Shown here piece by piece: positions 2,512 to 25,562 of a stretch of 25,835 nt of DNA (positions are counted from its first letter, which is position 1; the number at the start of each line of letters is the position of its first letter). The stretch covers positions 1 to 25,835 of the forward strand of contig DAOUQS010000005.1 of the NCBI GenBank assembly GCA_030625465.1, in the 5' to 3' direction. The notes under the pieces were generated by a model that had not been told where the DNA came from, searched no databases, and worked only from the letters and a program-made list of their open reading frames with translations. The position numbers and the translations under genes were made by a program. This DNA comes from Amylibacter sp. Its GTDB lineage: Bacteria; Pseudomonadota; Alphaproteobacteria; Rhodobacterales; Rhodobacteraceae.

Positions 2512-2522
2512 GGAGAAATATC

Positions 2523-4177: not shown

Positions 4178-4214
4178 CCCAGATGATATTTCCCTGCGGG
4201 GAATAAACTGTAAA

Positions 4215-5408: not shown

Positions 5409-5413
5409 CTAAT
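5380..5413 (-). terminator. Possible terminator pair after the aldehyde dehydrogenase gene
   Basis: Read on the minus strand, the stem ATTAGG...CCTAAT spans the dehydrogenase stop codon and is followed by TTTTGG and then a second stem TTTGGCC-AA-GGCCAAA. The stems are short and the T-run is only four bases, so termination is possible but weak. The placement, exactly at the end of the operon, is the main support. Confidence 0.35.
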
Positions 5414-6896: not shown

Positions 6897-6905
6897 TGTT
6901 TTTCC

Positions 6906-9430: not shown

Positions 9431-9456
9431 GTTATTCCTCCTTGGTTGATAGGTCG

Positions 9457-11189: not shown

Positions 11190-12256
11190 CAGTCTGCCAA
11201 CAGGCGCGCGGCACCGGCCTCGAAATTCAGGCCCACAACTTCACCAATGGCAGGGACATGGTTGTTTTCAGAGCTCTGCACCCGGACGGTGACCACTTCT
11301 TGATCATCCAATGTGACCTCGACATGCATGTCGGTGCCCAGATAAACTTGGCGCGAGGCTGTGCCTTGCAACAGACCTTTGGCTGGGCTGGTCATTGTAA
11401 CCCTTTCCGGGCGCACGGACAGATGCCCCACCCCTGTTCGGGCCCCGTCCGACGCAGGACAGTTAAACGCGACTCCATTGGGCAAGGTGCAGGTTGCCTG
11501 ACCCTTGCTGACATCGGTGACCGTGACATCAATCAGGTTGGTTTCACCGATAAAGCCGGCGACAAACTTGTTGCTTGGGGCCTCATAAATTTCACGTGCG
11601 GTTCCGACCTGCTGCAACTGCCCGTCCGCAATAACCGCAATGCGGTCGGACATGGTTAACGCTTCTTCCTGGTCGTGGGTTACAAAGATAAAGGTGATAC
11701 CCGTTTCATGCTGTATCTGCTGCAACTCCAAACGCACCGCTTGGCGCAATTTTAGATCAAGTGCTGACAATGGTTCATCAAGCAACAGCACTTTGGGGTT
11801 CGGTGCCAAGGCGCGGGCCAAGGCCACGCGTTGCTGTTGTCCACCGGAAAGCTGCGCGGGCAGACGGTCGGCAAAACTAGTCAGTTGCACCAGTTCCAGA
11901 ACCTCGCCCACACGGGCATTTGCCGTTGCATTATCCTGCCCAAGGCGTAACAAGCCGAATTTGACGTTGTCTGTGACGTTCATATGCGGGAACAAGGCGT
12001 ATTGCTGGAAAACTGTATTTATCGGGCGTTTGTTGGGCGGCAAATCGGCGATGTCCTCTCCGTAAAGCCTGATCGCCCCTTTGGTAATATCCTCAAAGCC
12101 CGCAATTGTGCGCAGCAGCGTTGTCTTTCCGCAGCCCGATGGCCCCAACAGGGTAAAAAACTCGTTATCCATAATACTTAGGGACACGTCCCGTAATGCA
12201 ACAAAGCTTCCGTAAAGCTTGGTCATTTTTTGAATGTCGATGGCAATATCTGTCAT
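11189..12256 (-). CDS. potA: Polyamine ABC transporter ATP-binding protein (PotA/PotG type)
   Basis: This 355-residue ATPase heads the polyamine operon. It has Walker A GPSGCGKT (38-45), Q-loop in VFQQYALFPHM, the canonical signature LSGGQQQ (136-142), Walker B LLLDEP (157-162) and His194 in FVTHD. The segment LPPNKRPINTVFQQYALFPHMNV is a strong marker of the PotA/PotG group. A TOBE-type C-terminal domain follows (LSVRPERVTMTS, then YLGTDMHVEV). The promoter must lie in the 101-base gap shared with the divergent LuxR-type regulator. The gene order ATPase, permease, permease, binding protein equals E. coli potABCD, but sequence features do not separate spermidine-preferential from putrescine-specific systems. 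Confidence 0.93.
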   Translation of the reverse strand: MTDIAIDIQKMTKLYGSFVALRDVSLSIMDNEFFTLLGPSGCGKTTLLRTIAGFEDITKGAIRLYGEDIADLPPNKRPINTVFQQYALFPHMNVTDNVKFGLLRLGQDNATANARVGEVLELVQLTSFADRLPAQLSGGQQQRVALARALAPNPKVLLLDEPLSALDLKLRQAVRLELQQIQHETGITFIFVTHDQEEALTMSDRIAVIADGQLQQVGTAREIYEAPSNKFVAGFIGETNLIDVTVTDVSKGQATCTLPNGVAFNCPASDGARTGVGHLSVRPERVTMTSPAKGLLQGTASRQVYLGTDMHVEVTLDDQEVVTVRVQSSENNHVPAIGEVVGLNFEAGAARLLAD

Positions 12257-12357
12257 TTACAACTAAATCCCCCCAGCGCTGTACAGGTACCCCTAAATCA
12301 GCTTTAATAAGAGTACATGCATTCAAGTCAGGGGTATATACCCCCAAAGAGGTATTC
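12257..12357. promoter_or_regulatory. Divergent promoter/operator region with palindromes
   Basis: These 101 bases separate the divergent polyamine operon and LuxR-type gene and must hold both promoters. Two perfect palindromes are visible: GGGGTATATACCCC at 12331-12344, only 14 bases before the LuxR-type start codon, and CTGTACAG at 12279-12286. A further TACCCC half-site lies at 12288-12293, matching the arms of the first palindrome. The first palindrome would overlap the core promoter or leader of the regulator gene, which fits autoregulation. The second cluster is about 25-35 bases before the potA start codon. I could not assign convincing -35 and -10 boxes. Binding by the neighbouring LuxR-type protein is inferred from position. 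Confidence 0.5.
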
Positions 12358-13167
12358 ATGCAGGTTTTCGCAGAAACAGAAGAATCCCAGCTTGCAACAG
12401 CAATCGCAAGCCTCAATACCAGCGAATTTCCGAACAGGTTAAACGCTTGGCTGCAAACCTGTTTGCCCTATGATAATATTACAATTCTGGCTTATTTTCA
12501 GAACCAGCGGCCCGTATCTATGATGTTTAAAAACCACCAACCTAAAGTTCATGAAAACATAAGTCAGGTTTATCTGGCGGGGGCATATCTATTAGATCCA
12601 TTTCACGACCTGCACGTCAATAATGCACCTGCCGGGGTTTATCGGCTTAGCGACATCGCACCTGACAAATTCCGCAGAAACCAGTATTTTATTGAGTATT
12701 ACAGAAATACAACCATGGTGGATGAGCTTGCATTTATATCTTATCCCTCACCTAATATTTCGCTGCATGTCTGTCTTGGGCGTGATAGCAACTCCAATAA
12801 ACGTTTTGCAATTCGAGAAATAGCCAACGCCCATCGATTATCGCCGCTGGTTACAACATTAACATCTGTTCACTGGAAGGGGCTAATGCCCGAGGGAGAG
12901 AGCGCTGAAGGCGAATTTGCTTCCAATCTAATCAAGGCCACCGATCGGGCACATGGAATTTCTCTTAGCCCCAGACAAGCAGAGGTCACCATGCTTGTCC
13001 TGCGAGGCCACTCTTCAGTTTCAATCGGGTTGAGATTGGGGATCAGTTATCAAACAGTTAAAGTATTTCGCAAACAATTATATCGAAAGTGCAAAATTTC
13101 ATCTCAGGCAGAGTTGTTTAATCTAATGCTTCCAATACTCGGGTCGCTATCAGAAAGCCGAAAGTAG
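12358..13167 (+). CDS. LuxR-type HTH transcriptional regulator
   Basis: This 269-residue protein ends in a LuxR-type DNA-binding domain at about 202-258: LSPRQAEVTMLVLRGHSS, then IGLRLGISYQTVKVFRKQLYRKCKISSQAEL. The N-terminal 190 residues are not recognisable by eye as a phosphoacceptor domain, and I could not identify the acyl-homoserine-lactone residue set. The start at 12358 is chosen because AGAGG stands 6 bases before it; the frame is open back to 12196, but that would run through the divergent promoter region and into the opposite potA gene. The gene is divergent from the polyamine operon, so control of polyamine uptake is the natural guess, with the N-terminal domain perhaps sensing an amine or related metabolite. 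This is inference. Confidence 0.87.
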   Translation: MQVFAETEESQLATAIASLNTSEFPNRLNAWLQTCLPYDNITILAYFQNQRPVSMMFKNHQPKVHENISQVYLAGAYLLDPFHDLHVNNAPAGVYRLSDIAPDKFRRNQYFIEYYRNTTMVDELAFISYPSPNISLHVCLGRDSNSNKRFAIREIANAHRLSPLVTTLTSVHWKGLMPEGESAEGEFASNLIKATDRAHGISLSPRQAEVTMLVLRGHSSVSIGLRLGISYQTVKVFRKQLYRKCKISSQAELFNLMLPILGSLSESRK

Positions 13168-13374: not shown

Positions 13375-14331
13375 ATGTTACTTCGCTTTACACTTCGACA
13401 GCTGGAATATTTTGTGGCAGTCGGTGAAATGGGAAGTATCGCGTTGGCATCTGAAAAAGTCGGCGTTTCATCCCCTTCCATTTCGTCAGTAATCAGCCAG
13501 CTTGAAAGTGGATTCGGTCTCCAGTTATTTATTCGAAAACACGCGCATGGCTTGTCACTGACCCAAGGTGGGCGGCAATTTCTGGTGCAGGCTAAAAAAG
13601 TTTTGGCTACAGCCGAAGAGATGAACGGCTTGGCAAGCAATATTTCCGGACATGTTCAGGGGCCGCTGAATGTCGGGTGTTTGTCAACATTCGCACAACT
13701 GGTCCTCCCACAATTACGCCGCCGGTTCGAGGCCAAGTTTCCCCAGGTTCGTATCAAACAATCCGAACTGCATCAGGCGGCGATTTTCGAGTGTTTGCAG
13801 AATGCTGAAATTGACATAGCACTGACTTATGATCTGAATACTCCGTCAGATATTACCTTTGTGCCAATGCTGAAATTACCGCTTTATGCCATGCTTTCGA
13901 TTTCACACCCATTGGCCGCGCGCGCGCAGCTATCCCCCGAGGATTTGGCCGATTTCCCGATGATTTTGCTGGATATTCCCTTTAGCGCTGACTATTTTTT
14001 ATCTTTCTTCCACGCCGCTGGGCTAAAACCAAACGTGACTGAACGAACCCAGGACATGGCTGTCATGCGGTCGCTCGTGGCAAACGATTATGGTTATGCT
14101 TTGGCCAACATCAGAACATTTTCAGACAGATCACCTGATGGCAACAGGTTAAAGTTCATACCGTTGACGGGGTCATTACGCCCTCTGCAGTTGGGCATCG
14201 CCTATTCAAAAGCTACCCATATGACTCGCACGGTTCAGGCATTTCTGGATCACTGTTTTGAAGTGGTCTCATCCGGAGATGTTCCAGGGTTGCATGTGAT
14301 GGAAAATCGCTCTGGCACTCAAGACAACTAA
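13375..14331 (+). CDS. LysR-type transcriptional regulator
   Basis: This 318-residue regulator has the standard N-terminal winged HTH (about 5-64): LRQLEYFVAVGEMGSIALASEKVGVSSPSISSVISQLE, then LFIRKHAHGLSLTQGGRQF. An inducer-binding domain of two lobes follows from about residue 90 (GPLNVGCLSTFAQLVLPQL onward). The C-terminus has a short polar extension after the family end. The preceding 207-base gap holds the terminator of the LuxR-type gene and, near 13342, a TATACT hexamer that could be a -10 box without a good -35. The gene is co-oriented with the catabolic operon 126 bases downstream and is its best candidate regulator. The inducer is unknown; if the operon handles lactams or omega-amino acids, one of those would be expected. 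Confidence 0.93.
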   Translation: MLLRFTLRQLEYFVAVGEMGSIALASEKVGVSSPSISSVISQLESGFGLQLFIRKHAHGLSLTQGGRQFLVQAKKVLATAEEMNGLASNISGHVQGPLNVGCLSTFAQLVLPQLRRRFEAKFPQVRIKQSELHQAAIFECLQNAEIDIALTYDLNTPSDITFVPMLKLPLYAMLSISHPLAARAQLSPEDLADFPMILLDIPFSADYFLSFFHAAGLKPNVTERTQDMAVMRSLVANDYGYALANIRTFSDRSPDGNRLKFIPLTGSLRPLQLGIAYSKATHMTRTVQAFLDHCFEVVSSGDVPGLHVMENRSGTQDN

Positions 14332-14457: not shown

Positions 14458-15834
14458 ATGACATTAAAGCCCAACTCCATACATGCGCGCGATATTGCCT
14501 CGCATTTACATCCCTTCACTAACCTTGACGCACATAATCAGGCTGGCCCGCATATTTTTAAACGCGGCGAAGGTGTGTACGTGTTTGATGATGAAGGGAA
14601 CCGCTTCATAGAAGGCTTGTCCGGCCTTTGGTGTGCATCGCTTGGTTTCAGTGAAAAGCGCCTTGTAAAAGCCGCCACAAAACAAATGGAAACTCTGCCG
14701 TTTTATCATAACTTTGCCCATAAGGCGGTTGAACCTGCGATCGAGCTTGCGGATTTCCTAGTCAAAAACGCACCGGTTCCGATGTCCAAAGTATTTTTTA
14801 CCAATTCCGGCTCCGAAGCCAATGATACACAGGTGAAAATTGTCTGGTATTACAACAATATCCTTGGTCGCCCTGAAAAGAAAAAGATCATAGCGCGGCA
14901 CGGTGCCTATCACGGCATTACCGTTGCATCGGCCAGTCTGACAGGGATGCAATACGCCCACAATGCCTTTGACGTGCCTATCAAAAACTTCCTGCACACC
15001 GATTGCCCGCATTTCTATCATTACGGGCAGGAAGGCGAGTCCGAGGAGCAATTTGCTTCACGTCTAGCCGCAAACCTTGAGGATCTGATCCAGCGCGAGG
15101 GTCCCGAAACCATCGCCGCGTTTATCGCAGAGCCATTCCTTGGTGCAGGCGGCGTGATCGAGCCTCCCAAAGGCTATTATGAAAAAATCCAGCCCATTCT
15201 GGACGAGCATGACATCCTGTTCATTGTTGATGAGGTGATCTCGGGCTTTTATCGCACCGGTGATATGTTCGGGACGCAGACCTATGGGTTGAAGCCCGAT
15301 TTAATTTCCATGGCGAAACAATTGTCTGCCGCCTATCAGCCCATCGGTGCGGTGATGATGAACCAGAAAGTCTATAATGTTCTGGAAGAAGGCAGCCGCA
15401 AATATGGCCTGTTCGGCACTGGCTTTACTTATTCAGGCCACCCAGTCCCTGCCGCTGTCGCACTCGAAACCCAGAAAATTTATCAAGACAGGGACATTGG
15501 CACTCACGTCAAAACCGTTTCCAAAACTTTCCAGAAACGTTTGCATGCGCTGGCAGATCATCCGCTTGTCGGTGAGACGCGCGGGCTGGGGCTGATTGGT
15601 GCGGTGGAGTTAGTTAAAGACAAAGAACGGCGGCTGAATTTTGATCCTGCGCAAGGGGTTGCCCCATATGTATCTGGTCGCGCCACCGAACATGGGCTGA
15701 TTGTGCGTCCGCTGCGCAATGATAGCATCGCTTTCTGTCCGCCCCTGATCATCAACGATACGCAGGTCAATGATATATTCGATGCCTTCGAAAAGGCGCT
15801 TGATGATGGCATTAACTACGTGGCGGAGCTTTAG
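14458..15834 (+). CDS. Class III omega-aminotransferase of the lactam-type operon
   Basis: This 458-residue PLP enzyme is a second, divergent class III aminotransferase. It shows LSGLWCASLGF (54-64), NSGSEANDTQVK (116-127), GAYHGITVAS (149-158), the cofactor aspartate Asp258 in IVDEVISGFYRTG and the Schiff-base lysine Lys287 in SMAKQLSAAYQP, ending with a RPLRNDSIAFCPPL segment. This profile fits omega-amino-acid or amine-pyruvate aminotransferases (4-aminobutyrate, beta-alanine, taurine and similar substrates). It opens the operon and HyuA begins six bases after its stop. If HyuAB opens a lactam to an omega-amino acid, this enzyme would convert that product to a semialdehyde with pyruvate as acceptor. 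That step is inferred; the class is certain. Confidence 0.9.
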   Translation: MTLKPNSIHARDIASHLHPFTNLDAHNQAGPHIFKRGEGVYVFDDEGNRFIEGLSGLWCASLGFSEKRLVKAATKQMETLPFYHNFAHKAVEPAIELADFLVKNAPVPMSKVFFTNSGSEANDTQVKIVWYYNNILGRPEKKKIIARHGAYHGITVASASLTGMQYAHNAFDVPIKNFLHTDCPHFYHYGQEGESEEQFASRLAANLEDLIQREGPETIAAFIAEPFLGAGGVIEPPKGYYEKIQPILDEHDILFIVDEVISGFYRTGDMFGTQTYGLKPDLISMAKQLSAAYQPIGAVMMNQKVYNVLEEGSRKYGLFGTGFTYSGHPVPAAVALETQKIYQDRDIGTHVKTVSKTFQKRLHALADHPLVGETRGLGLIGAVELVKDKERRLNFDPAQGVAPYVSGRATEHGLIVRPLRNDSIAFCPPLIINDTQVNDIFDAFEKALDDGINYVAEL

Positions 15835-15840
15835 AAAACC

Positions 15841-17868
15841 ATGCCTACTCAATGGCAAGTCGGAATTGATATTGGCGGTACATTTACCGATATTATAGCA
15901 CGTCACCCGCCCACCGGTGAGGTGCGCGCCGCGAAGGTAGCAACCCGTATAGATGATCGGGTCAAGGGGTTGGTTTCGGCACTCAAGGCTGTATCGCTTG
16001 ATTGGGATGAGGTGGCCGACCTTATCCTTGGTACAACAATGGTGACAAACGCGATCGTCGAGGACGACATGGCCGATGTTGCCCTGATCACGACCGAGGG
16101 GTTCGGGGATACGCTGGCCATTGGCCGCCAAAACCGCAAACATCTGTACCGCCTTGATCTGCCATCGAAAACCCCGTCGCAAATTCCGCCGGAATTGCGG
16201 TTTGAAGTACGCGAGCGCCTGGATCACGAGGGAAATGTCCTGACTCCGCTGGATGCAAACTCGATTGCAGATGTTTTGGCGAAAATCAAGGCAAGCGGTG
16301 TCAAATCCGTTGCGGTGTCTTTACTGCATTCCTATGCGAACCCGGCACACGAGGTTGCGCTTGGTGAAAAACTACAAAACGATTTTCCATATGTTGCCCT
16401 GTCCCACCAGATAAACCCCGAGGCCCGCGAGTTTGAACGCACCGCGACCACAGCCCTGAGTGCCAGCCTTATGCCGCTGGCCGCCGGGCAAATTGACCGA
16501 ATGGAGGTCATCAAACCAAAAAATTCAAGACTACATTTGTTCCATTCTGCAGGTGGTATGGCCGCCCCAGCCGTGTTGCGCGACCTGCCTTTGGGGCTGG
16601 CAATGTCGGGACCGGCGGCGGGTGTGGCAGCGGCGGGACATGTTGCGCAGAAACTGAAAATAGCAAAGGCACTTAGCTTTGATATGGGTGGCACCACAAC
16701 CGATGTTTGCCTGATTTCGGATGGCAAGGCTATGGTCAGTTCCAGCCGGTCTTTGGGGGATCGTCCGATCCGCCAGCCGATGGTCGCGGTTGATTCAATC
16801 GGGGCCGGTGGTGGTTCTATCGCGCGACTGGATCATGGGGCGCTGGTTGTTGGGCCAGAAAGTGCCGGCGCGTTCCCTGGGCCTGCCTGTTATGGCAAAG
16901 GTGGCAAAAAACCAACGGTTTCAGATGCAAATCTGGTACTTGGTTATCTGGATGCCGACCGTGTGTTGGGGGATAATCTGGCGCTGGATGCTAATGCGGC
17001 ACGCGCAGCTATTCAGCCGCTTGCTGATGACATGGCACTAGACGTTGAAGACGCTGCCCTTGGCATTGTGCGCGTTGCCAATTCAGCAATGGTCCGTGCG
17101 TTGCGACGGATCACCGTGGAGCAGGGGATTGATGGGCGCGATTGCACGCTGATGGCCTTTGGCGGGGCCGGGCCAATGCACGCGGTCGAAGTGGCGCAGG
17201 AATTTGGCATATCAAAAGTGATTGTGCCCGGGTTCTCCAGCATGTTTTCCGCGCTTGGCTGTGTCAGTGCCGAGATGAGCTATACCCGCCAGCGCACCCT
17301 GCGCATGGCGTCCGAAGCTTGGGATAAAACACGATTACGCCAAATGTGCTGCGAGATGCACGACGGGCTGGGCCAGCACATGGCCGAACCGCTGAAGGTC
17401 GCCGGATTAGGTGTGCAAGATTTGCTTATTACCAAGGTTGCACTGGTTCGTTATCGTGGCCAAAGTTATGCCATCGAGGTGCCAAACCCGAATTTCTCTG
17501 ACCCGGTTGCACTGGGTCAGGTATTTCAGGCCCTGCATGAAAAACTTTACGGATTTGCGACTGACGAACCGTGGGAGCTGCAATCTTTACGCATGACCGC
17601 CTCAGTGCCACGCAAATACAAAGCAAAATGGGCAATAGGTCTGAAAGTAACAGATGTTAACCCAACCAAGATCACCAAATGCGCGTTTGAAACCAGTGGT
17701 GCAATCGATACACCGCGCTATGGGCGTGACACTTTGCCAGTTGGCAAAACCCTGTATGGCCCCTTGGTGGTCGAAGATGCATTTTCGACTATAATCGTTC
17801 CGCCATTGGCAATGATGACAGCCGATGCTGACGGAAATCTTGTGATAAATTGCAAAGGCGGCATTTAA
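15841..17868 (+). CDS. hyuA: Hydantoinase/oxoprolinase subunit A (HyuA), ATP-dependent lactam hydrolase
   Basis: This 675-residue subunit belongs to the 5-oxoprolinase/N-methylhydantoinase A family, which couples ATP cleavage to opening of a cyclic amide. Hydant_A_N begins with VGIDIGGTFTD (7-17), an actin/hexokinase-fold phosphate loop, followed by LGTTMVTNAIVE (63-74). The second ATPase half has SFDMGGTTTDV (279-289) and SIGAGGGSIA (319-328), then GPACYG near 347-352. AFGGAGPMHA lies in the last third, before a beta-rich C-terminal region. Length is normal for a separate A subunit. The stop and the HyuB start share a base (TAATG at 17866-17870). With HyuB it forms a cytoplasmic hydrolase. 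Possible substrates are oxoproline, hydantoins, 2-pyrrolidinone, valerolactam and caprolactam; context favours a lactam yielding an omega-amino acid. Confidence 0.93.
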   Translation: MPTQWQVGIDIGGTFTDIIARHPPTGEVRAAKVATRIDDRVKGLVSALKAVSLDWDEVADLILGTTMVTNAIVEDDMADVALITTEGFGDTLAIGRQNRKHLYRLDLPSKTPSQIPPELRFEVRERLDHEGNVLTPLDANSIADVLAKIKASGVKSVAVSLLHSYANPAHEVALGEKLQNDFPYVALSHQINPEAREFERTATTALSASLMPLAAGQIDRMEVIKPKNSRLHLFHSAGGMAAPAVLRDLPLGLAMSGPAAGVAAAGHVAQKLKIAKALSFDMGGTTTDVCLISDGKAMVSSSRSLGDRPIRQPMVAVDSIGAGGGSIARLDHGALVVGPESAGAFPGPACYGKGGKKPTVSDANLVLGYLDADRVLGDNLALDANAARAAIQPLADDMALDVEDAALGIVRVANSAMVRALRRITVEQGIDGRDCTLMAFGGAGPMHAVEVAQEFGISKVIVPGFSSMFSALGCVSAEMSYTRQRTLRMASEAWDKTRLRQMCCEMHDGLGQHMAEPLKVAGLGVQDLLITKVALVRYRGQSYAIEVPNPNFSDPVALGQVFQALHEKLYGFATDEPWELQSLRMTASVPRKYKAKWAIGLKVTDVNPTKITKCAFETSGAIDTPRYGRDTLPVGKTLYGPLVVEDAFSTIIVPPLAMMTADADGNLVINCKGGI

Positions 17869-19481
17869 TGTTTTCCGTTGACCCGATCACACTTGAAGTT
17901 ATTCGCAACGCGCTAACCGCCACCGCCGAAGAAATGTCGCTTGTCGTGATGCGCTCGGCCCGCTCACCCTTGTTGCGCGAGGCTGGCGATCTGTCATCAG
18001 CCCTGACCGACGTGGATGGGTTTCTGATTGCACAAGGCCGCGATGTGCCGATGCATATGGGCGTGATGAGCTTTACCGTACGTGAATTCCTGAAGCGTGT
18101 TCCCAAAGAAAAACTGGCCCAGGGCGATGTCTGGTTTCTGAACCTGCCCGAAGTTGGTGGCAATCACTTGCCCGACGTAAAAGCCATTCGTCCGGTATTT
18201 GTTAATGGCACCCTGCGTGGCTTTGCTGTTTCATTGGCGCACTGGGCTGATATCGGCGGTGGTGTACCAGGCAGTTATGTACCGCATGCGCGCGATGCAT
18301 GGGCTGAAGGGCTGCGTATCCCGCCGCTCAGGGTTTTCACTGCAGACGGTGTGGACGAAGAGAAGCTTGAGGTAATTCTTGCAAATGTACGCGGCGCCGA
18401 TGAACGCCGGGGCGATATTCTGGCGCAATTCGCTGCCACCCGCGCAGCCGATGATCGAATGAACCAGATATTCAGCCGTCACGGAACTGATATGACAGTT
18501 GCGGCAATTGCGGCTATACATGACCGCGCAGAAGCACAAATGCGCGCAGCCCTGCGCGATATTCCCGATGGTACTTATTCGGGTGAAGACTGGCTGGATG
18601 ATGACGCTGCTGGCGGGCCTCCGCTGGCTATTCGCGTTGCGGTTACGATTGCCGGGGATACAGCCCGTTTTGACTTTACAGACACTGATGACGCAGCACT
18701 TGGGCCGATCAATACTACACCCTTTATTACCGCCGCGTCAGTCTATTACGTCATGAAAGCCCTGTTTGGGCCTGGCATTCAACCAAGCGGCGGTTGCTAT
18801 CGCCCGTTTGAAGTGATCACCCGCTCCGGATCTGTCCTTGAACCTGGATTTGATCGTCCGGTTGTTGGCGGCAATCACGAAACTTCGCAACGGGTGGCGG
18901 ATGCGGTATTCAAGGCTTTCGCGCAGGTTTACCCCGAATGTATCACAGCTGGCGGGCCAACAACCTCGGGCTTACTGTTGTTTGGCGGTCGGCGTGCAGA
19001 CGGGGTGTGGACAACACTTTACGAAACTCATGGTGGTGGCGAAGGTGGGCGCATTGACCGTGATGGTGCAAATGCCATTCGTGTACATATGTCTAACGTA
19101 ATGAACACCCCCGCCGAGGTGATCGAAGCCGAATACCCGCTACGCGTAGCTTGTCAAAAGCTGCGCAAAGGCTCGGGTGGTGACGGTGCACATAAAGGCG
19201 GCGAAGGCCAGCACCGCGAATATCAGGTGTTGTGTGAGAATATGTCAGTCACCTCTATGTTCGAGCGTCGCATTGTCGCCCCATACGGGCTTGAGGGCGG
19301 CGAAGACGGCGCGTTGTTCAAGGTCGAAATAATTCGTGCCGATGGGCAAACATCCGAGATGCCCGGCAAGGCAAACTTGCGCTTGAATACGGGCGACACT
19401 GTTAAAGTTCAAAGTTGCGGCGGTGGCGGATATGGCCATGCCGACACATCCAACCAAACAAAATGGGAGATCAGAAAATGA
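17868..19481 (+). CDS. hyuB: Hydantoinase/oxoprolinase subunit B (HyuB)
   Basis: This 537-residue protein is the Hydantoinase_B partner of HyuA. The start at 17868 is chosen because its ATG shares a base with the HyuA stop and MFSVDPITLEVIRNAL is the canonical N-terminus; the frame is open for six codons upstream but those lie inside HyuA. Typical blocks are SPLLREAGDLSSALTD, the metal-site region HMGVMSFTV, the VRGADERRGDI stretch, FDFTDTDDAALGPINT and the glycine-rich end GSGGDGAHKGGEGQHR and CGGGGYG. The first segment after the start (RNALTATAEEMSLVVMRSA) is also standard. Its stop overlaps the SDR start (ATGA at 19478-19481). Subunit B is thought to carry the amide hydrolysis site while A handles ATP. 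No unusual truncation is seen. Confidence 0.93.
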   Translation: MFSVDPITLEVIRNALTATAEEMSLVVMRSARSPLLREAGDLSSALTDVDGFLIAQGRDVPMHMGVMSFTVREFLKRVPKEKLAQGDVWFLNLPEVGGNHLPDVKAIRPVFVNGTLRGFAVSLAHWADIGGGVPGSYVPHARDAWAEGLRIPPLRVFTADGVDEEKLEVILANVRGADERRGDILAQFAATRAADDRMNQIFSRHGTDMTVAAIAAIHDRAEAQMRAALRDIPDGTYSGEDWLDDDAAGGPPLAIRVAVTIAGDTARFDFTDTDDAALGPINTTPFITAASVYYVMKALFGPGIQPSGGCYRPFEVITRSGSVLEPGFDRPVVGGNHETSQRVADAVFKAFAQVYPECITAGGPTTSGLLLFGGRRADGVWTTLYETHGGGEGGRIDRDGANAIRVHMSNVMNTPAEVIEAEYPLRVACQKLRKGSGGDGAHKGGEGQHREYQVLCENMSVTSMFERRIVAPYGLEGGEDGALFKVEIIRADGQTSEMPGKANLRLNTGDTVKVQSCGGGGYGHADTSNQTKWEIRK

Positions 19482-20260
19482 AACTTGAAGGAAAAACAGC
19501 CATCGTAACCGGTGCCGCCAAAGGTATGGGTGCTGCCATTACAATAACGCTTGCACGTGAAGGGGCAGATATTCTGCTGACTGCGCGCGACGTAGCTGCG
19601 CTCGAGCCAGTGGCAGAAGAAGTCCGCGCCATGGGGCGCAAAGCCCATGTAATTGCCTGCGATGTGATCCAAGAGAGCCAGGTTAAAGCCATGGTTGATA
19701 AGGCGCTTGAAGTCTTTGACGGACACATTGATATTCTGGTCAACGTGGCCGGTGTTACCGGTCCGATCGAAACTGCCGTTCAAGACATCGAAGTCGATGA
19801 TTTCGACTACGTTATCATCGCTAATGAGCGTGGTACTTTCTTGCCAATCAAACACGTGGTTCCCACCATGATTTCGCAAAAATACGGTAAGATTGTTAAT
19901 ATTTCCGGCACATCTGGCCTGCGGGGCTACCCGATGCGCACATCCTATAGCGCTTCGAAATGGGCGGTGCGCGGCATCACCCGCACGGTGGCGCTGGAAA
20001 TGGGCCCGCATAATGTGAATGTGAACGCGGTTTGTCCCGGCATCGTGGAAACACCGCGCATGATGAAACTATGCGAAGGCAAAGCCAAACAGCGTGGCTG
20101 GACGGTTGAGCGGGTTTATGAGGAATATGTGCAGGACATGGCTTTGAAACGGGTAACGACCGGCCAAGATATCGCCAACACCGTGCTTTTCCTTGCGTCG
20201 GATGAATCGCGTCAAATTACGGGCCAACACATCGCCGTTGATGGCGGCTGGGACGTTTAA
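19478..20260 (+). CDS. Short-chain dehydrogenase/reductase (SDR)
   Basis: This 260-residue classical SDR has the cofactor motif TGAAKGMG (11-18), NVAG (89-92; NNAG is more usual), the structural Asn116, a catalytic serine in NISGTSG (141-147) and Tyr157/Lys161 in YSASK. The end HIAVDGGWDV is standard. I take the ATG at 19478, which overlaps the HyuB stop and has GGGAGA about 8 bases upstream; an in-frame ATG at 19463 is possible but less well placed. The residue after beta-strand 2 (TARD) leaves NAD versus NADP open. It would oxidise an alcohol or reduce a carbonyl. Its role is the least explained in the operon: the lactam route proposed here does not need it unless the natural substrate carries a hydroxyl group or a semialdehyde is reduced. 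Confidence 0.88.
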   Translation: MKLEGKTAIVTGAAKGMGAAITITLAREGADILLTARDVAALEPVAEEVRAMGRKAHVIACDVIQESQVKAMVDKALEVFDGHIDILVNVAGVTGPIETAVQDIEVDDFDYVIIANERGTFLPIKHVVPTMISQKYGKIVNISGTSGLRGYPMRTSYSASKWAVRGITRTVALEMGPHNVNVNAVCPGIVETPRMMKLCEGKAKQRGWTVERVYEEYVQDMALKRVTTGQDIANTVLFLASDESRQITGQHIAVDGGWDV

Positions 20261-20284
20261 GCAATAGTTTGAAAGGATAGACCA

Positions 20285-21754
20285 ATGAACAAAGCAAGGA
20301 AATTCGAAGCGCCCGGCGGCATACCTTCGCAAATGTATATTGACGGAAAATATGTTGATGCAACAGGTGGTGGGCGGATCGAAACGCTTGATCCGGCTAC
20401 CGGTATGGTGTTTGCAGATTTTCCTGCTGGTCAGGTGGCTGATGTTGACATGGCGGTTGCTGCCGCCAAGTCATCGCTTTGGGGGGCGTGGCGTCAGGTC
20501 GTGCCTGCTGAACGGGGCCGTATTCTGAACCGCGCCGCTGCCCTGATCCGGCGTGACGCTGAGCGCCTGGCAATAATCGAGGTACTGGACAGCGGCAAAC
20601 CCTTGGGCGAAGCGCGCGGTGATGTTGAAACCACTGCGGCGTATTTTGAATATTACGCAGGCATGGCCGATAAACTGCAGGGCGATTCAATTCCTTTGGG
20701 CGTAGATTTTATGTCTTTCACCTTGCATGAACCTGTGGGCGTAACCGCCCATATTATCCCGTGGAACTTCCCGCTGGTGACAACCGCACGCGGCGTGGCT
20801 CCGGCGCTGGCGGCGGGTTGCACGGCAGTGGTAAAACCAGCCACACAAACCCCGCTGACCGCGATGGCTTTGAGCGGCATTCTGGCCGAAGCCGGGCTTC
20901 CTGACGGCGTTTACAATGTGGTGACGGGTCGGGGCAGCGACATTGGTGATGCCCTGACCGGCCACCCAGATGTTAACCATGTAACGTTTACAGGATCGGT
21001 TCCAACCGGGCTTGGTGTGATGAAGACTGCTGCGGATCAGGCCACTTCCGTAACGCTGGAACTGGGCGGAAAATCCCCAGTTGTGGTACTGAAAGATGCG
21101 GATATCGACGCCGCAGTCGCCGGTACTCTCAAAGCGATTTATATGAATGCCGGTCAGGTGTGCTCTGCTGGATCACGCCTTGTGATCGAACGTTCTGTTC
21201 ACGCCCAGATGATGGAAAAACTGGTAGCAGGGGCCGAAGCCCTGACGGTTGGACACGGCCTGGACGCGCCGCAACTGGGGCCACTGGTGTCTGAAAGCCA
21301 CCGCAAAACGGTGGCAAACTACGTGGACTCAGCCCATCAGCGCGGCATTAATATCGCGACCGGCGGCAAAGCGCTGGAGATTGAAGGCTGCGAGGGCGGA
21401 TACTTCTACGCGCCCACTATTCTGGATAATGTGGTCAGTTCCGATATCGTTATTCAGGAAGAAATATTTGGCCCTGTTCTCAGCGTTCAAATCGTGGATT
21501 CACCCGAACAGGCAATTGCGGTATCCAACGATACTCCGTTTGGCCTGTGTGCCGGGATCTACTCAAGCGACATCACCAAAGCCATGCGGTTCGCCCGCGA
21601 TGTCGAGGCGGGACAAGTATTTATAAATCAGTATTTCGCCGGCGGTGTCGCAACACCTTTTGGCGGAAGTAAGTTTTCCGGCTTTGGTCGCGAAAAGGGG
21701 CTGGCAGCGCTTGGCAGCTACTACCGCGTCAAATGCATTACAACACGAATTTAG
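20285..21754 (+). CDS. NAD(P)-dependent aldehyde dehydrogenase (betaine-aldehyde/semialdehyde type)
   Basis: This 489-residue enzyme has the ALDH landmarks IIPWNFP with Asn161, FTGSVPTG in the cofactor loop, Glu259 in LELGGKSPV and the nucleophile Cys293 in NAGQVCS. The C-terminal PFGGSKFSGFGREKG block is standard. It is a different subgroup from the PuuC-like protein of the polyamine operon, closer to betaine-aldehyde and general semialdehyde dehydrogenases. It follows the SDR by 24 bases with AAAGGATAG as ribosome site. In the proposed route it would oxidise the semialdehyde produced by the aminotransferase to a dicarboxylate, for example succinate from succinate semialdehyde. The exact aldehyde is inferred, not read from sequence. 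Confidence 0.91.
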   Translation: MNKARKFEAPGGIPSQMYIDGKYVDATGGGRIETLDPATGMVFADFPAGQVADVDMAVAAAKSSLWGAWRQVVPAERGRILNRAAALIRRDAERLAIIEVLDSGKPLGEARGDVETTAAYFEYYAGMADKLQGDSIPLGVDFMSFTLHEPVGVTAHIIPWNFPLVTTARGVAPALAAGCTAVVKPATQTPLTAMALSGILAEAGLPDGVYNVVTGRGSDIGDALTGHPDVNHVTFTGSVPTGLGVMKTAADQATSVTLELGGKSPVVVLKDADIDAAVAGTLKAIYMNAGQVCSAGSRLVIERSVHAQMMEKLVAGAEALTVGHGLDAPQLGPLVSESHRKTVANYVDSAHQRGINIATGGKALEIEGCEGGYFYAPTILDNVVSSDIVIQEEIFGPVLSVQIVDSPEQAIAVSNDTPFGLCAGIYSSDITKAMRFARDVEAGQVFINQYFAGGVATPFGGSKFSGFGREKGLAALGSYYRVKCITTRI

Positions 21755-21768
21755 AGGAGTGACGACTT

Positions 21769-22626
21769 ATGTACGGCGAATTTAAACTGGAAATGCCGCA
21801 ACAACTGGACGAAGCACTGGCTCTGATAGCTGAAGACCCGGCCGAGGTGCTTTCCGGCGGCACCAACCTGATGATTGAGCTGCGTGCACGCAAACTGCGC
21901 CCGGAGCAAGTTGTCTCGCTTGATGCTCTTAGCGAGTTGCGTGGCATCGAAGTGGATGGTAACAGAATAACCCTTGGTGCCCGAACCACAATTTCCGATA
22001 TTCTACGATGTGATGATATGGCTGAATTCGGGCCATCACTGTTGGATGCAGCAAACCTGTTTGCCGGACAAATGGTGCGCAACATGGGCACTGTCGGCGG
22101 CAATATAGCATGTTCCTCACCCGCGGCTGATCTGGTTCCGCCGCTGATGTCGCTTGACGCCGAGATAACGCTTGTTTCAAGCAAAGGCACGCGCAAAGTG
22201 GCTTTGTGCGACTACTATTTGAGCTACAAGAAAGACGTGCGTGCACCAAGTGAAATGATTACTTCTGTGTCATGGAAAAAGCTCGCCAAGAATAGCTCCA
22301 ACAGTTTTTATAAACTTGCGCGACGTATTGGTGATGCAATCACTGTAACCGGCGTGGCGGTGACACTGACTATGGACGGGGATCGCTGTACAACCGCGCG
22401 CATTGCTCTTGGTGCTGTTGCGCCGACTGTTTTCCGTGCAACGAATGCCGAGAAAATACTTGAGGGGCAGATCTTGACGGATGATCTGATCACAACAGCC
22501 GCACAACAAGCCAAAGCACAAAGCAGCCCGATTAGCGACGTGCGGGCCAGCGCAGAATACCGGCTTCATACCGTCGGCAAACTAACCCACCGCTTGCTTA
22601 CCCAAGCCCGCGACAAGCTGGTTTAA
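21769..22626 (+). CDS. Molybdenum hydroxylase FAD-binding (medium) subunit, CoxM/XdhB family
   Basis: This 285-residue protein is the flavin subunit of a xanthine-dehydrogenase-family complex. FAD-contact motifs are LSGGTNLMIELR (about 27-38) and MGTVGGNIACSSPAADLVPPL (about 105-125), followed by the FAD-domain C-terminal CO-dehydrogenase-flavoprotein-like region (KLARRIGDAITVTGVAVTL, then GAVAPTVFRA). It takes electrons from the 2Fe-2S subunit and passes them to an acceptor, probably NAD or the respiratory chain. A GAGGAG ribosome site lies about 10 bases before the start. Gene order medium, small, large equals that of many three-subunit bacterial enzymes. The name CoxM is a family label only. 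Confidence 0.92.
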   Translation: MYGEFKLEMPQQLDEALALIAEDPAEVLSGGTNLMIELRARKLRPEQVVSLDALSELRGIEVDGNRITLGARTTISDILRCDDMAEFGPSLLDAANLFAGQMVRNMGTVGGNIACSSPAADLVPPLMSLDAEITLVSSKGTRKVALCDYYLSYKKDVRAPSEMITSVSWKKLAKNSSNSFYKLARRIGDAITVTGVAVTLTMDGDRCTTARIALGAVAPTVFRATNAEKILEGQILTDDLITTAAQQAKAQSSPISDVRASAEYRLHTVGKLTHRLLTQARDKLV

Positions 22627-22640
22627 GAAAGGTGACACAA

Positions 22641-23129
22641 ATGAAAAATTCCAAAGAAATTATTTTGAAAATAAACGGGCGAAACGAAAAAATCACTGTC
22701 CCTTCACATCGTACATTACTGGAAGCCTTGCGCGAAACCGGCCATGTAGAAGTGAAATGCGGTTGTGAAAAAGGCGATTGCGGTGCTTGTGCCGTGCTGG
22801 TTGACAATGTGGCGATCGACAGTTGCCTAACGTTGGCATGGACCAGTGAAGGTAAGGAAATCACCACGATTTCAGGCCTTGGAACGCCAGATGAACCGCA
22901 TCCATTGCAAGCCGCGTTTCGCGATCTGGGTGCTGCCCAATGTGGGTTTTGCACGCCCGGGATGATCATTGCGGCGCAGGGGGTGATAAACGACAACCCC
23001 GCACCAACCGATGACGAAATCCGTATGGGGCTTAGTGGCAACCTGTGCCGCTGTACGGGGTACGCCAAAATTCTGGATGCGGTGGGTCACGCGGCATCCG
23101 AAATGCGCAAAAATGGAGAGCCGTCATGA
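22641..23129 (+). CDS. Molybdenum hydroxylase 2Fe-2S (small) subunit, CoxS family
   Basis: This 162-residue protein carries two 2Fe-2S clusters. The plant-ferredoxin-type cluster uses Cys42, Cys47, Cys50 and Cys62 (CGCEKGDCGAC, then SCLTL); the all-helical domain uses Cys101, Cys104, Cys136 and Cys138 (QCGFCTPGM, then GNLCRCTGY). I chose the ATG at 22641, which has AAAGGTG about 7 bases upstream; the in-frame GTG at 22632 is an alternative that would add three residues but has its ribosome site too close. It passes electrons from the molybdenum site to FAD. Its stop overlaps the start of the large subunit (ATGA at 23126-23129). Confidence 0.93.
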   Translation: MKNSKEIILKINGRNEKITVPSHRTLLEALRETGHVEVKCGCEKGDCGACAVLVDNVAIDSCLTLAWTSEGKEITTISGLGTPDEPHPLQAAFRDLGAAQCGFCTPGMIIAAQGVINDNPAPTDDEIRMGLSGNLCRCTGYAKILDAVGHAASEMRKNGEPS

Positions 23130-25456
23130 GCACGATTGTAAATCTGGACGACAGCGTCCCGAACGTTAATTACCGCCAAGTAGGCAAACCTTTACCCCGT
23201 ACCGATGCTGCCGGCAAAGTATTTGGCAAAACGCCCTATGCCGGTGACTACCAGATGCCGGGGATGTTGCATATGCGGGTTGTGCGGGCCGATATCGCCA
23301 GCGCAGAATTGACACATCTTGACGTTGAAAAGGCCCGTGCGCTTGCCGGTGTGGTGGAAATTATCACCGCTGCTGACCTGCCAGACCGCATGGCTGCAAC
23401 CGACATTCCCGGCCAGACCGGGCAAAAACGCATGGACACCGATCAGCAGGTTCTGGTGCGCAAGCGGGTCAAGTATTTTGGTGAACCCATCGCACTGATT
23501 GCCGCTGAAACGCCTGACATTGCCAACCGCGCCGCCGAGTTGGTCGCGTTCACGCTTAAGCCTATCCCCGGAGTTTATGACCCTATTGAGGCGATGAAAC
23601 CCGGTGCGCCGATTGTGCAGGGCAAAGACAATGTCGTAGCGACGCACAAGATCAAAAAAGGCGATGCTGCCGCAGGGCTGGCTGCCGCTGATATTGTGAT
23701 TGAGAACACTTACAAGACTCCGTTTCAGGAACACGCCTTTCTAGAGCCCGAAGTCGGCCTTGCATGGATTGATGAAAACGAAGTGATCAACATCCGTGTC
23801 TGCACGCAGGTGATTGAGCATTTCCGTGCTATCGCTGATGCGGTGGGCGTGCCCCACAACAAAGTGCGCATTCGCGGTGCTCTGGTCGGTGGCGGCTTTG
23901 GTGGCAAAGAAGATGTCACAGTTGAAATTTATCTGGCGCTGATGGCAAAACGGACATTACGTCCCGTGCGGCTGGAATACACCCGCGAGGATTCGCTGGT
24001 CGGTCACGGTAAACGCCACCCCTTTACGTTAACCTATAAAACCGGCCTGACCAAAGACGGAAAAATCTGTGGTTTGGATGTACAAATCATTGCAGATTCA
24101 GGCGCTTATGTGTTTCTTAGCCCCTATGTTCTACTTTACGGGGCAGTCAATGCGCCGGGGCCATATAAGGTTGAAAACCTGAATGTATTTGCACAGGCTG
24201 TGGCAACCAACAACATGTTCACCAGCGCCTTTCGCGGGTTTGGCGGCATGCAATCATGTGCTGCCTATGAACAGCAGATGGATGAATGTGCCAAAGCACT
24301 GGGTATGGACCGTATTGAATTCCGTCGGCTGAATTACCTGAATACAGGCGATGAAATCTCAACCGGATTTGTGCCACCCAGTGCGATCTGGACCGAAAAA
24401 TGTGTTGATCTGGCATGGAAAAACCTTGGCGGTGAGCTGGCCTTGAAAAAGGACGGTCCTATCAAGATCGGGCGCGGTGTTGCGGCCTATCAGCAAAGCT
24501 ATGGTCGCCTGACTTTCTTGCATGATACATCCGAGGCATGGGTTGGGGTCGAGATTGATGGCACCGTAATTGTGCGCTCTGGCGTGACCGATATTGGGGC
24601 GGGGCAAGTTTCGGCGTTGGGCCAGATCGCGGTTGAAATTCTGGGGGTCAGCCTTGAAGATGTGATCATCTATAATAGCGATTCTGCCGTGACACCTCTG
24701 GCAGGAACAACCACTGCAACGCGTGCGCTTTATATGACCGGAAATGCCACAAAAATGGCCGCCGAAGCGGTGCGGAAGCGGCTGGTCGCCCGCGCCGCAA
24801 AGTCTTTTGGCGTAGAACCCGATGTGGTTGATCTGGGGGGAAGCAGGGCGTTTGTGATCGATAATCCGGAAACATCCATGGAATTTATTGATTTAGTAAA
24901 ACTTTGTGCATCCGATGGTATTCACCGCTCTGAATTGGTAAATTTCAAGGCACCATTCTCGGACTATCTGGACCCGGAAACAGGACAAGGTCAGGCCCAT
25001 CCTGACTATGTTTACGGTGCCCACGCAATCGAGGTTTCGGTTGATACGGACACCGGCGAAGTGCGGGTTCTGCGCTCGGTTGCAGTGCATGATATTGGTC
25101 AATGCATAAACCGTGCAGCTGTGGAAGGTCAGATCGAAGGCGGCACCCAGAATGGTCAAGGTTTCGCGCTTAGCGAAGAAATGCTTTATGAAGAAGGTAA
25201 ATTGGTGACCCCTTCGTTCAGTGAATACCTGATGCCGACGTCAATGGATATGCCACGGGTCGAAATCAGTTTGCTTGAATCGCGTAGCGGACTTGGACCC
25301 TTTGGCGCCAAAGGAATTGGAGAACCGGCAATTTCACCTGTTGCACCTGCTATTGCCAACGCAATTGCCGATGCCATCGGAGTACGCGTATTCGAAATGC
25401 CAATAACGCCCGAGAGGGTAGTGAATGCTTTGAAAGGTGCTGTCGGACAAATGTAG
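23126..25456 (+). CDS. Molybdenum hydroxylase molybdopterin-binding (large) subunit, xanthine dehydrogenase family
   Basis: This 776-residue catalytic subunit hydroxylates a carbon next to a ring nitrogen or an aldehyde carbon, taking oxygen from water. The start at 23126 is coupled to the small-subunit stop and has GGAGAG upstream; the frame is open to 23045 but that part only shadows the small subunit. Cofactor motifs are GGGFGGKED (255-263) and AFRGFGGMQ (368-376), with QEHAFLEPE near 201-209. The catalytic glutamate is Glu733 in GAKGIGEPA. The CO-dehydrogenase active-site loop with its Cys (VAYRCSFR) is absent, so this is not a form I CO dehydrogenase in spite of the Cox-like subunit layout. 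No XdhC/MocA-type maturation gene is visible. The substrate is unknown; pairing with HyuAB suggests a cyclic imine or N-heterocycle converted to a lactam. Confidence 0.92.
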   Translation: MSTIVNLDDSVPNVNYRQVGKPLPRTDAAGKVFGKTPYAGDYQMPGMLHMRVVRADIASAELTHLDVEKARALAGVVEIITAADLPDRMAATDIPGQTGQKRMDTDQQVLVRKRVKYFGEPIALIAAETPDIANRAAELVAFTLKPIPGVYDPIEAMKPGAPIVQGKDNVVATHKIKKGDAAAGLAAADIVIENTYKTPFQEHAFLEPEVGLAWIDENEVINIRVCTQVIEHFRAIADAVGVPHNKVRIRGALVGGGFGGKEDVTVEIYLALMAKRTLRPVRLEYTREDSLVGHGKRHPFTLTYKTGLTKDGKICGLDVQIIADSGAYVFLSPYVLLYGAVNAPGPYKVENLNVFAQAVATNNMFTSAFRGFGGMQSCAAYEQQMDECAKALGMDRIEFRRLNYLNTGDEISTGFVPPSAIWTEKCVDLAWKNLGGELALKKDGPIKIGRGVAAYQQSYGRLTFLHDTSEAWVGVEIDGTVIVRSGVTDIGAGQVSALGQIAVEILGVSLEDVIIYNSDSAVTPLAGTTTATRALYMTGNATKMAAEAVRKRLVARAAKSFGVEPDVVDLGGSRAFVIDNPETSMEFIDLVKLCASDGIHRSELVNFKAPFSDYLDPETGQGQAHPDYVYGAHAIEVSVDTDTGEVRVLRSVAVHDIGQCINRAAVEGQIEGGTQNGQGFALSEEMLYEEGKLVTPSFSEYLMPTSMDMPRVEISLLESRSGLGPFGAKGIGEPAISPVAPAIANAIADAIGVRVFEMPITPERVVNALKGAVGQM

Positions 25457-25467
25457 ACTAGTGGATT

Positions 25468-25486
25468 GGTTCCAACAATTGGAACC
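25468..25486 (+). terminator. Hairpin after the catabolic operon
   Basis: GGTTCCAA (25468-25475) and TTGGAACC (25479-25486) form a perfect 8-bp stem with loop CAA, 11 bases after the large-subunit stop codon. No T-run follows, so it may be a weak or factor-assisted terminator or simply a stem that protects the mRNA end. It lies outside the probable insertion-sequence end at 25525. Confidence 0.45.
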
Positions 25487-25562
25487 CGCGATTTCGTGCG
25501 GCGATAATTTCGTCTGGGCCAACTTGGACCTGTCCCGCTTTAGTGCCGCTCCATGAACTCAT

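Follow-up and report, generated by a model that had tools for sequence, protein, structure and literature searches.

A putative histamine-catabolism cluster from Amylibacter in which a molybdenum hydroxylase and an ATP-dependent hydrolase may open the imidazole ring

Among the common nitrogen compounds of the sea and of food are histamine and related imidazoles. An N-heteroaromatic acetate, indoleacetate, is degraded anaerobically in Aromatoleum by the IaaCE system, which reportedly combines a molybdenum-dependent hydroxylation with a subsequent ATP-dependent ring opening by a hydantoinase-like enzyme. The bacterial route described for histamine uses a flavin monooxygenase on the ring. According to the accessible part of the account (PMC6467879), the hin genes of Pseudomonas putida U include the aminotransferase-type HinC and the aldehyde dehydrogenases HinD and HinE, which lead from histamine via imidazole acetaldehyde to imidazole-4-acetate, as well as the FAD monooxygenase HinF (EC 1.14.13.5) and the amidase HinG (EC 3.5.1.8). 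Here we describe a locus of Amylibacter sp. that seems to combine side-chain genes of the histamine type with a molybdenum (Mo) hydroxylase and an ATP-dependent hydrolase, HyuAB.

The window is a stretch of 25,835 nucleotides (GCA_030625465.1, contig DAOUQS010000005.1) and represents an entire contig, C11, of a fragmented metagenome-assembled genome, G000 (439 contigs, 2.27 Mb, 84% complete). On the + strand, at 14458-25456, eight co-directional genes follow each other with gaps of 6, -1, -4, 24, 14, 5 and -4 bases, in the order class III aminotransferase (AT), HyuA, HyuB, short-chain dehydrogenase (SDR), aldehyde dehydrogenase (ALDH), and the FAD (MoFAD), 2Fe-2S (MoFeS) and large (MoL) subunits of the Mo hydroxylase (Table 1). 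All eight proteins score well over their Pfam cut-offs. The LysR gene 5' of this operon and a divergent operon (5409-12256), which encodes a PotABCD-type transporter, a second class III aminotransferase (AT2) and a second aldehyde dehydrogenase (ALDH2), are probably part of the same system. On the strength of sequence relationships and gene linkage, which underlie all substrate claims below, we consider it likely that the operon and its neighbours form a histamine-catabolism cluster with a role in imidazole breakdown. Within this cluster, the Mo enzyme and the ATP-driven hydrolase stand where related histamine clusters have another gene set, and are most likely its ring-opening half. A sequence-only reading of the window had already singled out the eight co-directional genes with their overlaps or short gaps, and both the gaps (-4 to 24 bases) and the Pfam identities bear this out. 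Its title names four enzymes (Mo hydroxylase, ATP-dependent lactam hydrolase, omega-aminotransferase and aldehyde dehydrogenase), whose genes are as it describes them; the SDR, a member of the conserved core, was left unnamed there, and the limits set for the system were too narrow.

To delimit the conserved part of the operon, we looked for HyuA across 385 genomes belonging to the class. Twelve genomes besides G000 hold a HyuA of at least 48% identity, the next best being at most 41%. A close MoL (E <1e-180) is present in five of the 385 (G000, G079, G087, G289 and G370), and all five hold HyuA, HyuB, SDR, MoFAD, MoFeS and MoL together. The same six genes are found in G395, G396, G397, G400 and G401, all of g226, a distant genus of the same class; in a further g226 genome, G399, the contig carries the end of HyuA and part of MoL. 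This joint recurrence exceeds chance, and the conserved core is HyuA-HyuB-SDR-Mo hydroxylase, AT and ALDH being optional. Of the co-occurrence that the sequence-only reading had proposed to look for, the core part is found; AT and ALDH orthologs are absent from the other complete core stretches, L034 having an aminotransferase of 29%. As a consequence, the substrate of the core cannot be read from AT and ALDH. In L185, SDR and Mo genes occur with HyuAB missing from the stretch read, so that SDR and Mo may be the tightest unit.

The first link to histamine comes from g226. Downstream (3') of the core, its clusters contain an IclR gene and a transporter of the window's type (ATPase 60-61%, permeases 70-77%, binding protein 71-79% identical to the window's), which provide the context of two further genes. 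One is a pyruvoyl-type histidine decarboxylase (PF02329), found in six of the six clusters covered: it sits between IclR and transporter in G289, G395, G397, G400 and G401, and after a histamine-dehydrogenase-like gene in G396 (L155:2683-3621). The G289 copy scores 147.7 bits (cut-off 25) over positions 18-290 of 294, and the other copies are 83-89% identical to it. All six have the motif ASSF, whose Ser-Ser we take to be the self-cleavage site of pyruvoyl histidine decarboxylases, and the only solved relative is such an enzyme. PF02329 occurs in just 2 of the 385 class genomes, G289 and G148, and given this rarity the decarboxylase weighs more than the second gene, the histamine-dehydrogenase-like one. 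The latter lies 3' of the binding protein in three of the five clusters covered (G289, G396, G400) and its product is a flavoprotein of 690 residues that, among solved structures, matches histamine dehydrogenases best (896 and 890 bits, against 538 for trimethylamine dehydrogenase). By itself it says little, because the 12 genomes searched each gave 1 to 11 matches of this family at E 1e-60. The g226 decarboxylase lies inside an apparent catabolic cluster of an alphaproteobacterial genus; pyruvoyl histidine decarboxylase of lactic acid bacteria is known from an acid-stress setting.

The second link comes from named plasmids. Histamine dehydrogenases of at least 60% identity were found in 19 plasmid records, of which nine were opened (L193-L197 and L205-L208; genera Leisingera, Parasedimentitalea, Pseudohalocynthiibacter, Pseudosulfitobacter, Paracoccus and Shinella). 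All nine clusters hold relatives of ALDH2 (68-73%) and of the window's LysR (47-59%), together with RidA, DUF1028 and ArgE-like genes. Their aldehyde dehydrogenases are 68-73% identical to ALDH2 versus 38-41% to the operon ALDH. A MSMEG_0569-type flavoprotein is present in eight of the nine, in L208 only in pieces, and was not found in the Shinella cluster L207. The opened stretches contain no HyuAB and no close MoL. Five of the clusters, L193-L197, join histamine dehydrogenase with orthologs of the window transporter (58-78%), LysR (53-59%) and ALDH2 (68-69%). Their dehydrogenase has 689 residues; the L193, L195, L196 and L197 copies are 77-78% identical to the Rhizobium histamine dehydrogenase 6de6, and identical at 13 of 13 pocket residues listed in the accessible part of PMC10180351.

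The transporter can be compared with the window's in both settings: in the five histamine-dehydrogenase clusters and in the HyuAB/Mo clusters, respectively, identities are 60-72% and 71-79% for the PotD-type binding protein, 67-73% and 70-72% for permease 1, 72-78% and 70-77% for permease 2, and 58-61% and 60-61% for the ABC ATPase. The ATPase of L148 is 75% identical over a 92-residue end piece, and other PotA-type ATPases of the fetched loci are mostly below 50%. Binding-protein orthologs of 60-72% occur on plasmids of Leisingera, Parasedimentitalea, Sinorhizobium sp. BG8 and Pseudohalocynthiibacter. Polyamine uptake, as suggested by the PotD-like binding protein alone, was rejected as ambiguous, since the histamine-dehydrogenase clusters use the same transporter.

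Compared with these plasmid clusters, the window has the transporter, AT2, ALDH2, LysR and LuxR, and the AT-HyuAB-SDR-ALDH-Mo operon lies beside LysR, at the place where flavoprotein, RidA, DUF1028 and ArgE genes would be expected; when the window is compared at E 1e-15 with the plasmid flavoprotein, RidA, DUF1028 and ArgE-like proteins, none of them finds a counterpart. Most simply, the ring work would fall to Mo hydroxylase, SDR and HyuAB. LysR itself seems to track the presumed ring genes, judging from two annotated contexts: in Leisingera aquaemixtae (L210), LysR, a NAD(P)/FAD oxidoreductase, RidA, DUF1028 and ArgE occur with no histamine dehydrogenase or transporter, and in Roseinatronobacter (L211), LysR, RidA, DUF1028 and ArgE occur with no such oxidoreductase annotated. 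The LysR genes of L036, L057, L081 and L128 are just 35-37% identical to that of the window.

Alternatively, the two operons may be independent systems that happen to lie side by side, one for histamine or polyamine uptake and side-chain conversion (5409-13167), the other for an unrelated N-heterocycle (14458-25456). The two lie on opposite strands, the transporter is missing beside the type A cores or Mo genes (defined below) of L034, L035, L185 and L187, and the two pairs of aminotransferase and aldehyde dehydrogenase would then have separate jobs. However, g226 links the same transporter to the same core, there with histidine decarboxylase; the LysR directly 5' of the operon is the LysR of the histamine-dehydrogenase clusters; and in L210 it stays with the presumed ring genes, histamine dehydrogenase and transporter not being annotated nearby. 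We regard this alternative as unlikely.

The plasmid gene set may perhaps represent a flavin-linked ring-opening route for imidazole acetate, and we infer that the flavoprotein itself is an imidazoleacetate monooxygenase. The flavoprotein-RidA-DUF1028-ArgE-LysR set recurs on Rhodobacterales and Acetobacter plasmids (L195:2293-10826, L204:1-13514, L209:4906-14325, L210:6317-11444); DUF1028 is a Pfam family without assigned function. At E 1e-180, ALDH2 matches 35 plasmid records, of which 15 come from Acetobacter; in the one Acetobacter record opened, DUF1028, Rid, ArgE and LysR genes are annotated alongside a NAD(P)/FAD oxidoreductase and ALDH.

AT2 has three plasmid relatives of about 70%, each with a divergent LuxR gene 47-49% identical to the window LuxR. 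In Salipiger abyssi (L204), the AT2 ortholog (70%) occupies the place of histamine dehydrogenase, which is missing from the stretch, beside a flavoprotein (61% over the cut end), RidA (92%), DUF1028 (80%) and ArgE (68%) resembling those of the plasmid clusters; its ALDH is 67% identical to ALDH2 and its LysR 52% to the window's, LuxR is present, and the binding protein is at 37%. Leisingera thetidis (L198) has LuxR, AT2, the window-type transporter and short ALDH pieces. Histamine-type clusters thus hold close relatives of both AT2 and ALDH2, and from these resemblances we propose that the two may have histamine-deaminating and imidazole-acetaldehyde dehydrogenase activities, respectively. A histamine dehydrogenase was also looked for in the window's own genome: four family matches were obtained, none of which has the full pocket, and none is called such. 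These homologs of the histamine/trimethylamine dehydrogenase family lie in L201 (G000:C158; 2988-16870) and L202:5016-7073, and three of the four share one contig with further PotABCD-type transporter genes. No PF02329 match was found in this genome, which is 84% complete. The decarboxylases of G148 (L177) and Salipiger sp. CCB-MM3 (L200, by annotation) have no HyuAB or close MoL adjoining.

The question arises as to what the enzymes of the core themselves say about their substrate. The Mo enzyme has the three parts of the xanthine-dehydrogenase family, namely FAD, two-domain 2Fe-2S and Mo-binding subunits (Pfam). MoL remains under the curated cut-offs for PucD (494 versus 784 bits), XdhA (484 versus 780) and 4-hydroxybenzoyl-CoA reductase (452 versus 995). 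The domains of HyuA and HyuB, together with the CapB metal ligands, place the pair in the ATP-dependent oxoprolinase/hydantoinase/lactamase family. In alignment, HyuB conserves the CapB metal ligands Asp41, His99, Asp102 and His124 and the active-site Tyr136, and has Val-His in place of the vicinal disulfide Cys410-Cys411 of the CapB pocket (residue list from the accessible part of PMC8453981). This replacement fits a substrate more polar than caprolactam. Neither protein reaches the caprolactamase equivalog cut-offs NF050156 and NF050157 (425.7 bits for HyuA and 261.4 for HyuB, versus 1000 each). A HyuAB pair of Gulosibacter is described, in the part of PMC9477822 at hand, as not degrading caprolactam in resting cells. 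We retain the proposal of the sequence-only reading that a ring carbon adjacent to nitrogen is the target of the Mo hydroxylase, and that HyuAB probably opens the oxidised product with ATP.

The pathway in which that reading had placed these steps fares less well. A cyclic imine, whose source might be putrescine, cadaverine or a polyamine, would be converted to a lactam by the Mo enzyme, to an omega-amino acid by HyuAB, to a semialdehyde by AT and to a dicarboxylate by ALDH, the aliphatic ring being deduced from the aminotransferase. AT is indeed near solved omega-type transaminases (the closest are 5ghf and 6g4b, the latter presumably the caprolactam transaminase of P. jessenii), the transporter is PotD-like, and L057 lines up HyuAB, SDR, a DMGDH-like enzyme, AT (72%) and ALDH (71%). 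Diamines are, moreover, also oxidised by histamine dehydrogenases, as stated in the accessible part of PMC10180351. However, a cyclic-imine pathway leaves the histidine decarboxylase of the orthologous clusters unexplained, the other complete cores lack AT and ALDH orthologs, both HyuAB proteins are well under the caprolactamase cut-offs, and the CapB disulfide is missing. An ATP-costing lactam detour would also be uneconomic if ALDH oxidised the aminoaldehyde directly. Since, in addition, histidine decarboxylase and histamine dehydrogenase accompany orthologs of the genes next to the operon, the aliphatic-lactam reading is probably wrong, and we consider the cyclic-imine pathway distinctly improbable.

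For the histamine reading, the following scheme can be drawn. Histamine would be taken up by the PotABCD-type transporter of the divergent operon, and its side chain converted to imidazole-4-acetate by AT2, then ALDH2. Mo hydroxylases commonly attack a ring carbon that adjoins a nitrogen or lies between two; here the enzyme would oxygenate an imidazole ring carbon, the SDR might perform some linked redox step, and the cyclic amide so formed (an imidazolone or hydantoin) would be hydrolysed by HyuAB at the expense of ATP, towards an aspartate-type product. Two lines are conceivable. In the first, a double oxidation would give hydantoin-5-acetate, whose ATP-dependent opening would yield N-carbamoyl-aspartate. 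In the second, the ring would be oxidised once, at C2, and opened to a ureido enamine; this would hydrolyse to carbamoyl-aspartate semialdehyde, a substrate for the operon ALDH, and the presence of an ALDH gene beside the Mo genes would be accounted for. The operon AT and ALDH may act on a related amine or complete the conversion of what ring opening yields (for example, carbamoyl-aspartate semialdehyde), AT acting on a second amine or on the ring-opened amine. We lean slightly towards the full version of this scheme, in which the ring of imidazole-4-acetate is opened without O2 as a reactant, by the Mo hydroxylase with water-derived oxygen and by ATP-driven HyuAB. This previously undescribed route would have displaced flavoprotein-linked ring genes beside a conserved LysR and side-chain module, and its core would be portable: it would have histidine decarboxylase, histamine dehydrogenase or aminotransferase modules as partners, and demethylase modules in a paralogous type. 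A literature search over titles and the opening lines of abstracts, outside of which most subscription papers fall, found no Mo hydroxylase/HyuAB route for histamine or imidazole acetate.

The paralogous type deserves attention, as it gives rise to a third alternative. We call type A the loci with a MoL 69-87% identical to the window's, and type B those at 53-57%. In all four type B loci (L036, L189, L191, L192), a DMGDH-like FAD/GCV_T gene lies directly 3' of MoL, and in L036 there are MttB-type methyltransferase and corrinoid-protein genes, the same two that adjoin a HyuA in L128. The core could then open another N-heterocycle, for instance an N-methylated one, and histamine would be incidental in g226; L149, where the core is preceded by a Rieske gene and a distant DMGDH-like gene, might point the same way. 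But the type B MoL is merely 53-57% identical to that of the window, no DMGDH-like gene occurs within any type A core (the relative upstream in L149 is at 33%), and the histamine-cluster orthologs around the window would be left unexplained. We therefore hold this alternative to be very improbable, and keep to the histamine reading. A pathway for N-methylpyrrolidone-like or other N-methyl compounds was rejected as well, the DMGDH-like genes belonging to type B (L036) or to L057. The paralogous type B core (L036:1-14057, L189:6222-16042, L191:108-8822, L192:1-10309, to which L128:3823-8912 is added for its methyltransferase and corrinoid-protein genes) perhaps serves an N-methylated imidazole or another N-methyl heterocycle. 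In L149:1368-7387 (G396), the Rieske oxygenase gene is directly 5' of HyuA, and divergent from it are the DMGDH-like gene, a zinc alcohol dehydrogenase gene and a Peripla_BP_4 binding protein gene.

Several observations weigh against a histamine role. Neither the transporter nor AT2 is exclusive to histamine clusters: in Sinorhizobium sp. BG8 (L199) no histamine dehydrogenase or companion genes lie within 12 kb of the transporter, L198 has it without histamine dehydrogenase, and Roseovarius L203 pairs AT2 with a class II histone-deacetylase-type gene, next to a LIV-type transporter. Conversely, the transporter is distant in Salipiger and in four of the nine plasmid clusters (L205-L208), with binding proteins at 34-37%. 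The six g226 genomes represent one genus and are not independent; the histamine-dehydrogenase-like gene is missing from two of the five covered clusters (G395, G397), and its L153 product shares 57% identity with 6de6 and keeps 10 of the 13 pocket residues (N110H, F176L, D265N), from a family with 3 to 11 matches per g226 genome at E 1e-60. Beyond g226 and the window, type A clusters, some on short contigs, have no adjoining histidine decarboxylase or histamine dehydrogenase; L034 and L187 have, by eye, apparent amino-acid or LIV-type transporters, and L035 a LIV-type transporter (also by eye) and a SBP_bac_8 gene. Related type B clusters contain demethylase-type genes. The genome is incomplete, its contig stopping at an apparent IS3 remnant, and substrate, order of steps, site of hydroxylation and the putative roles of SDR, AT and ALDH are deduced from sequence and gene linkage.

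The distribution of the core is patchy. MoL is present in 7 of the 21 G289-family genomes (7 of 22 in the search of the order) and in two of four of the G370 family. In the order of G000 itself, none of 291 other genomes, including six congeners listed, has it at E 1e-180, so that it looks like an acquired trait there; its absence from these other genomes and the apparent IS3 fragment adjoining the operon suggest horizontal gain. Among 12 genomes reached via the named loci, four have MoL (E 1e-120), including the Rhodobacteraceae metagenome-assembled genome Vin_22, whose 4.9 kb contig (L188) carries ALDH (86%), MoFAD, MoFeS and MoL (86%) in the order of the window, the MoL frame containing one TAG. 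In the other complete type A cores MoL is 69-76% identical to the window's; the SDR is at 73-77% in type A cores and at 83% where it adjoins the Mo genes in L185. MoL has many close relatives: the best 120 protein clusters listed, the window among them, are all of at least 75% identity. The 354 plasmid records with MoL relatives are all below 60%. Viral contigs gave three distant HyuA loci. In a HyuA tree of 61 rows (the window and the best 60 of 106), in which the window row has an unusual letter composition and long branches were flagged, the window groups with six g226 rows (support 100/95), next joined by G370 and G087 (96/91), which makes a nine-row clade, all with Mo genes. Bradyrhizobium loci (L059-L064, L066) represent a sister clade; in them HyuAB (HyuA 47-48% to the window) lies beside a distant class III aminotransferase gene, without SDR ortholog or close MoL.

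The remainder of the window contains, at 426-5300, genes for two more PotA-type ATPases, for a protein of the DAK1/DAK2 dihydroxyacetone kinase type and for a DUF1254/DUF1214 protein. At the other end, directly 3' of MoL (25457-25835), its translation shows a transposase fragment that we take to be of the IS3 type.

Table 1. Genes of the window, and histidine decarboxylase genes of g226 (the starts of HyuB, SDR and MoL are refined)
Feature	Position	Strand	Basis or remark
ALDH2, proposed imidazole-acetaldehyde dehydrogenase	5409..6896	-	Pfam PF00171
Class III aminotransferase 2 (AT2), proposed histamine aminotransferase	6906..8279	-	Pfam PF00202
PotD-type solute-binding protein, proposed histamine importer	8396..9430	-	PotD-like
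ABC permease 1	9457..10266	-	Orthologs in histamine-dehydrogenase and HyuAB/Mo clusters
ABC permease 2	10266..11189	-	Orthologs in histamine-dehydrogenase and HyuAB/Mo clusters
ABC ATPase, PotA-type	11189..12256	-	Orthologs in histamine-dehydrogenase and HyuAB/Mo clusters
LuxR-type regulator	12196..13167	+	Divergent to transporter/AT2/ALDH2 operon; assigned by relatives, not by Pfam
LysR regulator	13375..14331	+	Pfam LysR_substrate and HTH_1; co-directional, 5' of operon
Class III aminotransferase (AT)	14458..15834	+	Pfam PF00202; NCBIfam PRK06105, 708 bits
HyuA, ATPase subunit	15841..17868	+	Pfam PF01968 and PF05378
HyuB, metal-dependent hydrolase subunit	17868..19481	+	Pfam PF02538, 570 bits
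Short-chain dehydrogenase (SDR)	19478..20260	+	Pfam adh_short_C2
Aldehyde dehydrogenase (ALDH)	20285..21754	+	Pfam PF00171
Mo hydroxylase FAD subunit (MoFAD)	21769..22626	+	Pfam PF00941 and PF03450
Mo hydroxylase 2Fe-2S subunit (MoFeS)	22632..23129	+	Pfam PF01799 and PF00111
Mo hydroxylase large Mo-binding subunit (MoL)	23126..25456	+	Pfam PF02738, PF20256 and PF01315
g226 decarboxylase genes	L153:5427-6374, L147:3529-4467, L148:16104-17042, L150:4194-5132, L151:16214-17152, L155:2683-3621		

If the proposed route holds, oxygen would be taken from water and ring opening could run at low oxygen, and a function would be given to the HyuAB-SDR-Mo core, parts of which are now annotated as hydantoinase and xanthine dehydrogenase. 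Named strains of Leisingera and Salipiger carry relatives of the side-chain genes and are amenable to testing.

Four known systems can be set beside the window. By its description, the hin system has the same kind of side-chain steps, an aminotransferase and aldehyde dehydrogenases, as are proposed for AT2 and ALDH2, but relies on HinF and HinG where we propose Mo hydroxylase, SDR and HyuAB for the ring. The histamine-dehydrogenase plasmid clusters share relatives of ALDH2 and LysR in nine of nine cases, and a close transporter in Leisingera, Parasedimentitalea and Pseudohalocynthiibacter; they differ by RidA, DUF1028 and ArgE-like genes, by the flavoprotein in eight of nine, and by the lack of HyuAB and close MoL in the opened stretches. 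The IaaCE system, likened here by description, resembles the proposal in the Mo-dependent hydroxylation of an N-heteroarene acetate followed by ATP-dependent opening, and differs in its substrate, an indole instead of an imidazole. Finally, the CapAB pathway of P. jessenii likewise has a two-subunit ATP-dependent hydrolase near an omega-aminotransferase and a semialdehyde dehydrogenase; no Mo hydroxylase is described in the accessible parts of these accounts (PMC6061476, PMC8453981), and the HyuAB of the window, below the cut-offs and without the vicinal disulfide, departs from CapAB itself.

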